A stretch of 64,000 bases of DNA from Halorubellus sp. JP-L1 (GTDB taxonomy: Archaea; Halobacteriota; Halobacteria; Halobacteriales; Natrialbaceae): the NCBI RefSeq assembly GCF_011440375.1, contig NZ_JAAOIR010000001.1, forward strand, positions 992,001-1,056,000, given 5' to 3'. The translations under genes and the position numbers were made by a program. Under the pieces are notes generated by a model. The model worked only from the letters and a program-made list of their open reading frames with translations. It was not told the origin of the DNA and made no database searches. How positions within the stretch are numbered: the stretch's first letter is position 1; the number at the start of each line of letters is the position of its first letter. Positions 10,485 to 16,886 of the stretch are shown here, one piece after another.

Positions 10485-10856
10485 CTATTCGTCGTCGTCG
10501 AACTCGTCTTCGTTCTCGCCGCGGACCATCGCTGCCTCCGCGCCGGCGTCGGCGTCGGCGGCGGAGGGTGCGTCGGCCGCGTGCGGACCCTCGACGAGTT
10601 CGCCGAAGTCCTCGACCTCGTCGTACTTGTCCTGGTACATCAGCGCGACCTTCCCCTTCTTCGTGAGTTCGTAGAGCCCGGAGCGGTTCGCGGGCCCGAT
10701 CTTGTCCACGAGCGCGTAGTCCGCCAGGACGGGGAGTCGGCTGTTGATGTTCTTCCGGCTCTTGCCGGTGTGTTCGGCCAGGTTCGTCGCCACGTTCCGG
10801 CCGTGTGCCTGTAGCGCCTCGAGGATCAGGAAGTCGGTTGGTCGTCGGAGTCTCAT
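10485..10856 (-). CDS. PhiH1-repressor-like winged-helix protein
   Basis: The 123-residue protein is a winged helix from residue 1 to about 80 (LRRPTDFLILEAL, then the recognition helix around GKSRKNINSRLPVLADY and the wing SGLYELTKKGKVAL), followed by an acidic low-complexity tail. It resembles the repressor of haloarchaeal phage phiH1 and its many chromosomal relatives. The ATG at 10854-10856 is preferred over a start 21 bases upstream because it begins the conserved MRLRRPTD. Upstream on its strand AAATAAAAGG is a TATA-like box. The target is unknown. Confidence 0.85.
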   Translation of the reverse strand: MRLRRPTDFLILEALQAHGRNVATNLAEHTGKSRKNINSRLPVLADYALVDKIGPANRSGLYELTKKGKVALMYQDKYDEVEDFGELVEGPHAADAPSAADADAGAEAAMVRGENEDEFDDDE

Positions 10857-12611: not shown

Positions 12612-12641
12612 AACCCACACACGGCTCCACGGAAACGGAAC

Positions 12642-12655
12642 GGTTTTACGTAACC
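12642..12655 (+). promoter_or_regulatory. Probable original promoter of the tRNA-Glu gene
   Basis: GGTTTTACGTAACC lies about 25-38 bases before the G that begins the truncated tRNA copy at 12680, the usual archaeal TATA spacing. The integrated element now separates it from the intact tRNA. A close look-alike occurs at 15284-15298. Confidence 0.55.
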
Positions 12656-12679
12656 ACTCGCTATCTAAGCGTGCACACC

Positions 12680-12723
12680 GCTCCGTTGGTGTAGTCCGGC
12701 CAATCATCTTGCCCTCTCACGGC
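12680..12723 (+). repeat. Truncated 5' half of tRNA-Glu; left attachment repeat
   Basis: These 44 bases are identical to 15360-15403, the first 44 bases of the intact tRNA-Glu. They cover the acceptor 5' strand, the D arm, the anticodon loop and three bases of the 3' anticodon stem. Identity stops at 12724 (G, where the tRNA has A). It cannot form a tRNA because the T arm and the 3' acceptor strand are missing. Confidence 0.93.
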
Positions 12724-12882
12724 GCTGCCGATTTCGCCTGAGTGGGAAGGGCCAAAATCGCCAGCGGGCATCGCGTTGTTTTCCTCGTCGCCAAGACACG
12801 CTGGCGAGTAGATTGCGTTGAATGCGTAATCGCAAGACTGCGCCGGGGTGTCTAACCAGTAAGAGCAACTACAGGTTAGACA

Positions 12883-14013
12883 ATGGCGAACGACCCAAAC
12901 ATCGACGAAGTTCAGGGGATTCCCCTGATGACGAAAGACACCGCAGGCCGACTCTCCGAGAAGCAACGAGTGGACTATGGGGAGGAAATTCGTTCCCTGT
13001 TGAAGTGGCTGCTATCGGCCGGAAAAGATCCTGAGCGACTCAAGGGATACGCTCAGAGCACCATCTACACGAGCACGAACCACATCGACGTGTGGGCGCG
13101 GTGGGTGTGGGATGAGGAAGGATACACCTCGACCTTCACCCACGACCACGCGGACGACTACTTATTCCATCTCGGAACCCAAACAGACTACTCTGACTAC
13201 TATCTCGCCTCGATATTCAAGACGCTCAAGCGGTACTTCAAGTGGCAAGTTCACGAGCGAAACGGGACGGAGTGGGACCCACAGTACAGCTTCAACGATC
13301 CGTCCAGTACGAAACCGCAGGAGTATCTCTCCATCGAGGAGCGAGAGAGACTGCGAGATGCAGCTCTGGATTACCGTGGAGTCCCTCATTACAAGAGTCT
13401 GACTCCGGAGGAGCGGAGCCGGTGGAAGGCTCACCTCGCAGTCCGGTTCGAGAAGTCGAAGTCCGAGATCACCCCCGCTGACTTCGAGCGTGCGAATGGT
13501 TGGAAGTTCACGAGCCTCATCTGGGTGAGTCTCGACGTTGGGTTACGTCCGGTAGAAGTCGAGCGAGCGAAGACGAGTTGGTTCCGTGTTGAAGATACGG
13601 AGAATCCGAAAGTCGTTATTCCGGCTGACGATTCTACGAAGAACACGGAGCATTGGGACGTTCCCCTAACCCGGAAAACGGGCGAAGCGGTGAAACGATG
13701 GATCGCGGAGCGCGATGCCTACCCGAAGTACGACGACACCGATACGATGTGGCTCACGCGGGAGTCGAATCCCTACGCCTCGTCATCGTTACGCTATCTA
13801 CTAATTCAGCTCTGCGAGGAAGCACGCATTGAGGTCGAAGACCGCCGAATGTCTTGGTACGCGATTCGTCATTCAGTCGGAACTCACCTGGCTCAGACGA
13901 AGGACTTGAAGCACGCTCAACGAGTTCTACGACACAAACGGACAGAGACTACAATGAAGTACAATCACCCGGATGAGAATCAGATTCGGGATGGACAAGA
14001 TAAAATCGGATAG
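12883..14013 (+). CDS. Tyrosine recombinase (integrase) of the element
   Basis: The 376-residue protein has an N-terminal SAM-like core-binding domain (about residues 30-125) and a catalytic domain (about 145-365). Catalytic candidates are Arg222 (GLRPVEVE), Lys253, Arg329, His351 (LRHKR) and nucleophile Tyr360 (TMKYNH). The position three before Arg329, usually His in the HxxR box, is Tyr326 (WYAIRH). It should recombine the tRNA-Glu site with a matching site on the excised circle. It is the first gene inside the left repeat, as is common for tRNA-targeted elements. The start ATG at 12883 follows an in-register ACAGGTTAGACA leader. Confidence 0.93.
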   Translation: MANDPNIDEVQGIPLMTKDTAGRLSEKQRVDYGEEIRSLLKWLLSAGKDPERLKGYAQSTIYTSTNHIDVWARWVWDEEGYTSTFTHDHADDYLFHLGTQTDYSDYYLASIFKTLKRYFKWQVHERNGTEWDPQYSFNDPSSTKPQEYLSIEERERLRDAALDYRGVPHYKSLTPEERSRWKAHLAVRFEKSKSEITPADFERANGWKFTSLIWVSLDVGLRPVEVERAKTSWFRVEDTENPKVVIPADDSTKNTEHWDVPLTRKTGEAVKRWIAERDAYPKYDDTDTMWLTRESNPYASSSLRYLLIQLCEEARIEVEDRRMSWYAIRHSVGTHLAQTKDLKHAQRVLRHKRTETTMKYNHPDENQIRDGQDKIG

Positions 14014-14049
14014 CGTTATTCCGGCAAACGGCGAGGAAATTTGGAGTAT

Positions 14050-14583
14050 TTATTTCGCACTGACTAAGTCGAGTATATACAGAGGAATCCAGATCATCAC
14101 TACGGAGGAGCCAAGGATAGTCAACAAACCTGCGACGTGGAACCAGAGTAGAAAGGAGATTCCGAGGAACGGGTCAGAAATAAAGAGAGCGATGAGGCTA
14201 CCGACTGCACTCGCCATCCCGAGAGTCCAAATAATGAACGCCATAATCGCCGTCCCAAACGAGATATTAAGCGAATCGAGCCACTGGAAGATGGAGATTC
14301 GGACATTCTGCAGTCTACGGTTTGGACGGCGACGCCCCTGACCATTCCACTTATAGAAAAATCGTTTTTCTTTTCCAATAGATTCTTCCTTTTTAGATAG
14401 GTCAGAAAGTTGGTTAGCAACCGTCCCCACCTTACTGGCCCGACAGTCATCAGAAATCGCCTCGAAGATCGTTTCCGGTTCATGTTCCATGTCAGGGTGA
14501 TTATAGAGGTGTTTGATAATCTCCCGTTTGGTGTCTTGATTTCCTCCGTCGTACTTTTCCAAGAGCTGTTCCTTGGTGTTCAT
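14050..14583 (-). CDS. Winged-helix protein with membrane-embedded C-terminus
   Basis: The 177-residue protein combines a predicted winged helix (about residues 18-80, with the KVGTVANQLSDLSKKE region as a possible recognition helix) with a basic linker (RRRPNRR, about 84-90) and two or three membrane helices (about 109-135 and 140-172). I do not recognise the family. It could be a membrane-tethered repressor of the element or a regulator that senses the membrane. It is convergent with the integrase and divergent from the next small gene, with paired inverted motifs in the shared 5' region. Codon use is AT-rich like the rest of the element. Confidence 0.75.
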   Translation of the reverse strand: MNTKEQLLEKYDGGNQDTKREIIKHLYNHPDMEHEPETIFEAISDDCRASKVGTVANQLSDLSKKEESIGKEKRFFYKWNGQGRRRPNRRLQNVRISIFQWLDSLNISFGTAIMAFIIWTLGMASAVGSLIALFISDPFLGISFLLWFHVAGLLTILGSSVVMIWIPLYILDLVSAK

Positions 14584-14614
14584 TCTAAACCCCCCAAGGG
14601 CGACGGGTCGTGAT

Positions 14615-14658
14615 GGTTGTCATGACCTTGTTGAGCACCCATGATGACTGTCACAACC
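14615..14658. promoter_or_regulatory. Inverted motifs between divergent element genes; candidate operators
   Basis: GGTTGT (14615-14620) and ACAACC (14653-14658) form an inverted pair. Inside are two self-complementary cores, GTCATGAC (14619-14626) and TGACTGTCA (14645-14653). They lie 32-75 bases upstream of the winged-helix gene and before a TTTATAC box (about 14686-14692) of the next gene. That suits an operator bound by the element's own winged-helix protein; binding itself is inference. Confidence 0.45.
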
Positions 14659-14758
14659 CATCTCGTTGCTGAACTATCTTTAGAGTTTATACTATTGCCA
14701 GTTGAAGTGGAAACTGGATAATGATCCAAATGAAAGACCGAACAATGACCGAATAATT

Positions 14759-15100
14759 ATGCCAGGCATTCAACACGGTTATGAGCGCGGTGTCTCGGTA
14801 ATAGTCGAAACTCTGATCGTAGCAATCCTCATAGGAGAAGTGGTGCCAGTACTCGTCGAAGCTGGCTTACTCCCGAAGAATCTATTTTCGGGCTTGGTGG
14901 TGTTCTCCATCCTTGGTATAGTATTAACAATCGACAAGTCGAGATACTGGTCGTTTGGCTACTTAGCAGGGTTTTGTATCGGGATCTTCATAGCATTACC
15001 ACTCTTTCTTCAGACACGGTTTATTGGTGGACTCGACTTACTCCTCTACGGAGGCGCTGCAGTGAGTGCAATTGCACTACGGGTGAAAATCCACAGTTGA
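14759..15100 (+). CDS. Small polytopic membrane protein of the element
   Basis: From the ATG at 14759 this is a 113-residue protein with four hydrophobic segments (about residues 12-34, 42-58, 65-85 and 89-107) and few charged residues. I recognise no family. An in-frame TTG 57 bases upstream would add a polar N-terminus; I prefer the ATG. A very short frame (ATG at 14721, stop at 14754-14756) ends just before it and might be a leader peptide, or chance. It is the last gene before the right attachment repeat. Confidence 0.6.
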   Translation: MPGIQHGYERGVSVIVETLIVAILIGEVVPVLVEAGLLPKNLFSGLVVFSILGIVLTIDKSRYWSFGYLAGFCIGIFIALPLFLQTRFIGGLDLLLYGGAAVSAIALRVKIHS

Positions 15101-15359
15101 TAGATTTGTCTATATAACAGGGTTTGTTGGCCGTTTCCAATCTGGCTCCATCGAGGAGATCGAATCAGTCAGATTGCCGAGACGGAGGCAAGACCGAGGC
15201 CGGATCTAAGAATAGAGCTTCCGTCGAGTCGTCTCCCGAGGGCATTCCGGCGAATGGCAACTGCCCGCGAACCCAAAAAGTGAGGTTTTTATGTTACCGG
15301 TACATCCAGTCGAGTGAAGCCGCTTCCCACCGGGGAATACCGGCCTGACGACGAGGCAA
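15101..15359 (+). other. Right end of the element, non-coding
   Basis: No convincing gene lies here. The stretch begins with an AT-rich run (TCTATATAAC near 15111-15120) and ends at the intact tRNA. It contains the promoter-like GGTTTTTATGTTACC at 15284-15298 and a small CCGGGGAATACCGG hairpin near 15331-15344, which could be part of a longer tRNA leader. Confidence 0.6.
15284..15298 (+). promoter_or_regulatory. Element-borne substitute promoter for tRNA-Glu
   Basis: GGTTTTTATGTTACC closely resembles GGTTTTACGTAACC at 12642-12655, the presumed original promoter. It lies about 62-76 bases before the tRNA, farther than the original 25-38, so a longer 5' leader would need RNase P processing. 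Its activity is inferred from similarity and position. Confidence 0.5.
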
Positions 15360-15434
15360 GCTCCGTTGGTGTAGTCCGGCCAATCATCTTGCCCTCTCAC
15401 GGCAAGGACCAGGGTTCGAATCCCTGACGGAGCA
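15360..15434 (+). tRNA. tRNA-Glu (anticodon CTC)
   Basis: The cloverleaf is complete. The acceptor stem is GCTCCGT (15360-15366) with ACGGAGC (15427-15433) and discriminator A at 15434. The anticodon stem is TTGCC/GGCAA (15389-15393, 15401-15405) around loop CTCTCAC with anticodon CTC at 15396-15398. The T stem is CAGGG/CCCTG around TTCGAAT. No intron is seen. CCA is not encoded. A T-run follows directly and is a likely terminator. This gene is the attachment site of the neighbouring element. Confidence 0.97.
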
Positions 15435-15605
15435 CTTTTTGCAACCCAAACCGCGAGCGATAGCGACCGGTTTGCTGGAACGAAGCGCGGACGGAGAGGA
15501 TGCGAAGCGGGGAGCGCAGAGCTGTCGCGGGTCGTCCGTTCGTCGTCCTGTGTGTCGTGGGTGCCCGGTAGACATTTCAGCTGGAGGCGAGTGGTGGGCT
15601 GCTAG

Positions 15606-16886
15606 ATGAGTGCCACGTCCGATGCGTTGACGGAGCCGCGGGTGCTCGCGCACGCGAAGCGCCGGCTGTTCCCCGAGGTGGAGGGACGCGAGGGGTACGC
15701 GGTGACGGACACGCAGTTCGCGACCGAGGAGTGGATGGCTGGCGAGCGCGTGGACGAGGGGGTTCGGGAGGTGCTGGCCCCGTTCAATCACGTTCGCGTC
15801 GGATCGGGGTACCCGGACGTCGTGGGCGTCGGGTCCCTGGACGACGACCTGCTGGGGGTGACTCGGCACGGAGAGGAGCCGCCGCTGGTGGTGGTGGAGG
15901 CGAAGGGGTTCTCGGCGAGCGGGCGCGTTGACGTCGGTCGCGGTGTCGTGCAGGCGCACGATCGACTCGGAGAGGCGAACGTGGCGTTCGTCGCGGCGCC
16001 GTCGGTGGCGGTGTCCGAGTCGGCGCGGTCGCTCGCGCGAGAGCTGAACGTGGGCGTGCTCGGCGTAGACGCGGACGGCGGCGTGGTGACATTGGAGCAT
16101 CCGCGCGTGGTCGGGACGCGGACGACGACGGAGACGACCGCGATCCGGTTCCAGGCGAGCGCCCAGGGGGTCGCGGAGCGGTCGTTCGGCCTGAATCACC
16201 CGAAGAACTACCTCGGGTACGCGCTCGCGGTCGCGCACGACCGGTCGACGGCGGACGTCGTCGGCGAGCGGGTCGTGGGCGCGGCCGAGGATGCGGCTCG
16301 CGGAGCGGCGTTCCTCGGGCTCGTCGACGACGCGCCGGCTGGGCGGTCGGTGACGCCGCTGGGCCGGGAGGTGGTGCGGTTCGCGCTAGACGAGTACGGG
16401 TCGGTCGACGCGGCACTGGACGCGTTCGCGGACTGGAAGGGCTCTCAGCGGCGGTTCTGCGAGCTCGCGCCGCGCTGGGGGCTGCTCGCGCGACGCGTGC
16501 TCTGGGCGTATCCGGCGACGCAGTTGCTGGTCGAGGAGCTCCAGTCGATGCACGACGACGGCATCGCGTCGCCGTCGCTCGTCGACGTCGTCGAGTACCT
16601 GCACGCGCTCCATCCGTCGTTCGCGATCGAGCTGTTCGTACGCGGAACCGAGGGCGCTCGCGAGCGCGTGCTCGACCGCGACGGCGACCTCAAGGTGGCC
16701 TCGCTCGCCGACGGTTCCGTGTATCACTCGCCGACGGTGTTCCAGCTGAAGGCGATGCTGTACCACGCCGGGTTCCTGACGGAGCGCGGCGCGGAACCGT
16801 CGAACCTCGATCCGACGGCGGACGTCTGGCGACTCCGGAACCCGGTAGGGGACCGTCGTGATCCGGCCGGGTCGTTCGTCGAGTGA
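15606..16886 (+). CDS. Uncharacterised protein with a PD-(D/E)XK nuclease-like core
   Basis: The 426-residue protein has no named family that I recognise. Its first third shows a restriction-nuclease-like pattern: GSGYPDVVGVG (Asp71), then after about 26 residues PLVVVEAKGF (Glu98, Ala99, Lys100), which fits PD-(D/E)XK catalytic residues. The rest is alpha-helical with a possible winged-helix section near residues 230-275 (AAFLGLVDDAPAGRSVTPLG) and no membrane segment. It starts 172 bases beyond the tRNA-Glu, outside the integrated element. A host-defence or DNA-repair role is conceivable, but there is no partner gene to support either. Confidence 0.65.
   Translation: MSATSDALTEPRVLAHAKRRLFPEVEGREGYAVTDTQFATEEWMAGERVDEGVREVLAPFNHVRVGSGYPDVVGVGSLDDDLLGVTRHGEEPPLVVVEAKGFSASGRVDVGRGVVQAHDRLGEANVAFVAAPSVAVSESARSLARELNVGVLGVDADGGVVTLEHPRVVGTRTTTETTAIRFQASAQGVAERSFGLNHPKNYLGYALAVAHDRSTADVVGERVVGAAEDAARGAAFLGLVDDAPAGRSVTPLGREVVRFALDEYGSVDAALDAFADWKGSQRRFCELAPRWGLLARRVLWAYPATQLLVEELQSMHDDGIASPSLVDVVEYLHALHPSFAIELFVRGTEGARERVLDRDGDLKVASLADGSVYHSPTVFQLKAMLYHAGFLTERGAEPSNLDPTADVWRLRNPVGDRRDPAGSFVE

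Follow-up and report, generated by a model that had tools for sequence, protein, structure and literature searches.

Integrases of the pTN3/TKV4 type, found in Thermococcales, use as attB the 5' half of a tRNA-Leu gene, with 41 bp shared (Cossu 2017 PMC5495485; PMC8371274). In pTN3 the rebuilt tRNA has been parted from the promoter it had before, and its expression is attributed to the integrase promoter (PMC5495485; PMC8371274); a 2021 review called the pTN3 group unique in archaea for its use of a tRNA 5' half (PMC8371274). The HSTV-2-like family of haloarchaeal integrases was named in the same review (Badel et al. 2021, PMC8371274). Here we describe, from a 64,000-nt window of the Halorubellus sp. 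JP-L1 genome, a 5'-half element of the HSTV-2-like family whose integration probably swaps promoters between the host tRNA and the integrase gene (int).

The element and its borders

A direct repeat of 44 nt, identical at all 44 positions, bounds an element of 2,680 bp. The repeat corresponds to positions 1 to 44 of tRNA-Glu(CTC) and starts exactly at tRNA position 1, the preceding base being C at the left copy and A at the right copy. At its other end it takes in the first 3 nt of the anticodon stem's 3' strand, the anticodon arm (TTGCC-CTCTCAC-GGCAA) occupying tRNA positions 30 to 46. An exact 44-nt match to half a tRNA, present at each end of an insert with an integrase gene, vastly exceeds what chance would give. 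The whole tRNA-Glu(CTC), at the right-hand end, is the sole tRNA called by ARAGORN in the window and the only CTC tRNA-Glu of the genome, where the other tRNA-Glu is TTC. A sequence-only reading of this stretch had proposed a 44-base repeat holding the 5' half of this tRNA, an integrative element, and a whole tRNA at its right end. The repeat proved exact, the insert between its copies does carry an integrase gene, and the ARAGORN call lies downstream of element DNA.

The crossover is expected in the anticodon loop (12714-12720). Since the anticodon arm is the part common to the 3'-type blocks of relatives and the 5'-type block of the window, a single crossover site in the loop would fit both. 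The stranded left half is identical to the right one over all 44 nt, which suggests that the insertion is recent. Directly 3' of the stranded half is an imperfect 15-bp inverted repeat, GCTGCCGATTTCGCC / GCTGGCGATTTTGGC (12724-12768).

An empty site is available in another genome of the same genus (G001), where an uninterrupted tRNA-Glu(CTC) lies behind the same left gene (68.6% amino acid identity); this gene adjoins tRNA-Glu(CTC) in many related loci. Using a promoter weight matrix (PWM) built from the tRNAs of the Halorubellus genome itself, the left promoter scored 12.7 at -47 and that of the empty site 15.2 at -49, nearly the same distance from the tRNA. Given this uninterrupted site with the same left gene and promoter distance, the comparison indicates a native origin for the promoter and 5' half on the left, and an element origin for the right 5' half and the DNA upstream of it, back to 12724 and including the right-end promoter. 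This agrees with the earlier proposal that the original promoter had been stranded beyond the element; no uninterrupted relative already had the right-end promoter arrangement, the empty relatives keeping the native promoter.

Table 1. Features of the element and its flanks, in window coordinates (last row: coordinates within L240)
Feature	Position	Strand	Basis or remark
Native tRNA-Glu(CTC) promoter (BRE/TATA, GGTTTTACGTAACC at 12642-12655), now upstream of int	12633..12655	+	tRNA-promoter PWM
attL: stranded 5' half of tRNA-Glu(CTC), positions 1-44	12680..12723	+	exact repeat with 15360-15403
Arm-like repeat (putative integrase arm site), inverted relative to relatives	12750..12775	-	19.2 bits
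Second arm-like repeat (putative), inverted relative to relatives	12822..12847	-	26.3 bits
Tyrosine integrase, HSTV-2-like family, 376 aa, intact	12883..14013	+	PF00589, E 4.6e-15
Cargo ORF, 177 aa, hydrophobic C-terminal half	14050..14583	-	
Cargo ORF, 132 aa, hydrophobic	14702..15100	+	
Predicted element far-end promoter, TATA TTTTTATG at 15286-15293, now upstream of tRNA	15276..15298	+	far-end motif and tRNA-promoter PWM
attR: element-derived 5' half, tRNA positions 1-44	15360..15403	+	exact repeat with 12680-12723
Rebuilt tRNA-Glu(CTC): element 5' half and native 3' half	15360..15435	+	ARAGORN
Copies of the 81-nt repeat in L240 (G236:C3:174800-194700)	542-622 and 10756-10836 (int-oriented)		

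The integrase, arm-like repeats and cargo

The integrase has a single Pfam match, PF00589, with no Phage_int_SAM domain. It shares 41.3% identity with HSTV-2 gp75 across 99% of its own length. With membership set at 30% identity or more to the named member, covering 60% of the protein or more, it belongs to the HSTV-2-like family. In a 40-row alignment the residues R222, K253, Y326xxR329, H351 and Y360 are conserved, Y326 standing throughout the family in place of the usual H of HxxR. The catalytic residues of an active tyrosine integrase are therefore conserved, and the protein may be expressed and competent for excision. All 49 phage records matching the integrase are haloviruses by name, and the plasmid matches covering at least 80% of it are all haloarchaeal, two bacterial matches being weak and partial; these phage and plasmid matches conform to the definition of the family, which confines it to Halobacteria and their elements.

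At 13 of 108 family positions that are nearly invariant the window integrase has another residue; the outgroup HSTV-2 departs at equally many, and altered specificity and early decay cannot be told apart as the cause. Many relatives (G056, G064, G057, G016, G109, G014 and others) have a second integrase of the same family, convergent and directly after int, compared with the single one of the window. The integrase scan gave one relative among the genome contigs and none among the viral contigs; the tRNA-Glu 5'-half pattern was likewise absent from the viral contigs, and neither scan found an excised circle or free form of the element. The free genome of the virus HSTV-2 has the order tRNA-like 3' fragment, arm site, int ORF.

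Ordinary elements of the family have two or three direct arm-like repeats, CGCCGTCTTGCGATT, between the tRNA and int, on the int strand. With a matrix made from 32 arm repeats of relatives (window background below 0.1 matches per kb at 12 bits), we found two strong repeats in the same interval of the window, on the opposite strand. Their function as arm sites is putative. One candidate explanation of their orientation, that the whole attP had been turned round with respect to int, was rejected, the repeats being between the core and int and not on the far side. Inverted repeats are not required for a 5'-type site, because among the other such loci, described below, G236 has arm-like repeats in the ordinary orientation and G333 only a single weak inverted site at the same distance.

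The 132-aa cargo ORF probably encodes a membrane protein and has relatives (51-57%) on three haloarchaeal plasmids, of Halomarina, Natronosalvus and Halosegnis. For the 177-aa cargo ORF there was no match in Pfam, NCBIfam, PHROGs, PADLOC or plasmids.

Ordinary and 5'-type relatives

The window was compared with related integrase loci, 73 distinct ones after merging two duplicated loci, which are nearest relatives and not a random sample. Nearly all are of the ordinary, 3'-half kind. A whole tRNA is directly upstream of int in 61 of them, and a 3' half, tandem or displaced, in five; two (L034/L035) are 3'-block loci in which int sits at the tRNA-distal end, and one has no tRNA. In ordinary relatives the displaced copies start at about position 8-35 and extend through the tRNA 3' end. 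The remaining four loci are 5'-type: the window, G333 and G408, all at tRNA-Glu(CTC), and G236, at tRNA-Arg. In one relative, L168 (G248:C1), the element lies between two apparently whole tRNA-Gly(CCC) genes (int-oriented 480-550 and 16171-16241), its att block spanning almost the entire tRNA.

When 392 genomes were searched by pattern for a tRNA-Glu(CTC) 5' half not continuing into the tRNA, only the window and G333 were returned. Matches in G280, G308, G257 and G193 were rejected as halves; they are whole tRNAs with a GGCGA variant. In G333 the half (positions 1-44) adjoins int and the whole tRNA is 59.7 kb away. G408, which was reached via the G333 integrase, had been missed by the pattern because its block comprises positions 1-42; its whole tRNA is 10.9 kb away. 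G333 and G408 each have a left promoter that matches those found in congeneric genomes without an insert at this site. G236 is different in that an exact 81-nt repeat consists of 46 nt of upstream DNA, promoter included, and the first 35 nt of tRNA-Arg(TCG).

These loci bear on the question of whether the arrangement in the window might have come from the decay or rearrangement of a 3'-type insertion, such as a pair of ordinary elements or a tRNA duplication whose left 3' half was lost. Tandem (G079) and whole-copy (L168) tRNA duplications do exist in relatives, and the window integrase is divergent at otherwise near-invariant sites. However, the break falls at the anticodon-arm boundary in the window and G333, at position 44 in both, and at 42 in G408, and left of int there is no remnant of a 3' half, nor room for one before the arm-like repeats. 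We regard such a rearrangement as very improbable, and treat the arrangement as the product of one 5'-half integration.

One clade containing all four 5'-type integrases was rejected (AU p 0.0036), and the G236 integrase groups with ordinary integrases. Judged from this phylogeny, the switch to a 5'-type site was consequently made at least twice, G236 being independent. A first tree joined the window and G333, with a long-branch warning; with G408 added the support was 64/86, and these sequences neither show nor exclude a single origin for the three elements at tRNA-Glu.

The box at the right end

Upstream of the rebuilt tRNA, at the right end of the element, is the sequence GGTTTTTATGTTACC (15284-15298). 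We compared it with a motif derived from 25 ordinary elements at their far ends, a TATA box GGGGTTTTATATA, which in 23 of the 25 occurs 107-127 nt before the crossover centre. There, at the end away from int, the box has no tRNA to serve. The best match to this motif before the crossover was at -114 in the window, -127 in G333 and -125 in G408; if best matches were uniformly placed, each element would fall within the band of -107 to -127 about 11% of the time. Shuffled sequences scored as high or higher in 9 of 200 cases for the window, 18 of 200 for G333 and 87 of 200 for G408. With motif scores this modest the argument draws mainly on position. For HSTV-2 itself the far-end box is less clear by motif, and in L240 (G236) the family's far-end TATA is still there, about 90 nt further out. 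In many ordinary elements (L145, L148, L149, L150, L151, L153, L155) the far-end TATA box is preceded, at about 10 nt, by the palindrome TTGCC-N5/6-GGCAA or one half of it; the palindrome matches the anticodon-stem arms of tRNA-Glu, and is possibly an integrase-binding operator.

The far-end boxes face the crossover; in the circular form they face int. From this orientation and the fixed position in ordinary elements, the right-end box is most readily interpreted as the box that this family carries upstream of attP, and it would drive int in the circle.

The sequence-only reading took this box for a substitute tRNA promoter kept by selection. The likeness to the native box on which that was based is real, with a resemblance of 8.5 equalled in only 2 of 150 shuffles, but the idea that the box was kept specifically for the tRNA is not supported by the comparison with relatives. 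A dedicated promoter, acquired or kept by selection after the native one was cut off, would make sense in that the tRNA must be transcribed, and the G236 block, which includes the native promoter, makes selection for promoters in 5'-type elements plausible. Against this, ordinary relatives have this box too, equally spaced from the crossover, in places where no tRNA depends on it, and their boxes are equally like the native one (L164 9.5, L111 8.0, L163 7.5). The right-end box, at -84, is also about 40 nt further from the tRNA than the tRNA promoters of this genome, which range from -40 to -62. A dedicated tRNA promoter is accordingly an unlikely explanation, and we prefer the resident attP box. 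With the tRNA-promoter PWM the right-end box scores 6.0 (p=2e-4 per position), compared with 12.7 for the native box, a weakness that counts against our own reading. BRE/TATA-like boxes are present at -84 to -95 from the tRNA in the window, G333 and G408; in G408, and possibly in G333, a second weak A/T box nearer the tRNA could also serve.

A model of promoter exchange

In the model that we favour, the HSTV-2-like integrase would recombine in the anticodon loop of tRNA-Glu(CTC). Most family members bring the 3' half of a tRNA in attP, so that the tRNA keeps its own promoter; the window element brings the 5' half, and the tRNA is rebuilt at the integrase-distal end. The attP TATA lies about 115 nt upstream of the crossover and faces int across it; in the circle it would serve as the integrase promoter. 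Upon integration the 5' half of the element was joined to the native 3' half, as can be seen in the sequence itself. Because that 5' half brings the attP-upstream box along, the tRNA would receive the promoter of the element and int that of the tRNA. The predicted start of the tRNA transcript is at about 15313-15318, leaving a leader of some 40-45 nt for RNase P to remove. The anatomy of the locus, the empty site, the position of the box relative to the crossover, the rarity of the arrangement and the at least two independent 5'-type switches are all shown by the sequences; the promoter activity, integrase expression, excision competence and regulatory meaning are suppositions of the model.

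Perhaps the rebuilt tRNA is instead transcribed poorly or not at all, the box being incidental and the cell using tRNA-Glu(TTC) for GAG. That tRNA is present and could read GAG by wobble, and the box scores below the native promoter. Yet the whole tRNA is intact, with a 5' half identical to the native copy over 44 nt, and the arrangement recurs with intact tRNAs in G333 and G408, which makes a silent or poorly transcribed gene rather improbable compared with one expressed through promoter exchange.

The 5'-type loci appear to meet the promoter problem in two ways, with the attP box or, in G236, with a duplicated native promoter. This leads us to a wider proposal, which we advance tentatively as a possibility: the att side may have flipped repeatedly within one integrase family, each flip being a reciprocal exchange in which the host tRNA promoter would drive int while the element is integrated and the int promoter of the element would drive the tRNA, the loss of the native promoter being solved by the attP promoter (window, G333, G408) or by a copied host promoter (G236). 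If this is true, host translation and the control of element excision would be coupled. The use of a tRNA 5' half, rare but arising more than once inside a haloarchaeal integrase family that otherwise uses 3' halves, provides a natural comparison of the ways in which an element can maintain expression of a host tRNA whose promoter it has cut off. The promoter-exchange model is testable in culturable and genetically tractable hosts.

Comparison with known systems

SNJ2-type integrases are also haloarchaeal tyrosine integrases that use tRNA genes, but their att is 14 nt at the tRNA 3' end (PMC8371274), whereas that of the window is the 44-nt 5'-half block. With ordinary HSTV-2-like islands the window element has in common the integrase family, the crossover in the anticodon arm, int beside the tRNA, arm-like repeats and a far-end TATA at about -115. 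In those islands the 3' half is duplicated and the tRNA remains on its own promoter; here it is the 5' half, the native promoter is on the far side, and the arm-like repeats are inverted.

With pTN3 the window element shares a tRNA 5' half in both attP and attB, and the separation of a tRNA from its promoter by a 5'-half att is already known from that system. pTN3, however, is suicidal, having attP inside int and splitting the gene on integration, and it belongs to another integrase family and host. The element described here differs from it in its intact integrase gene, which lies beside attL with att outside it, in its HSTV-2-like family, in being nested among integrases that normally use 3' halves, and in its conserved far-end box.
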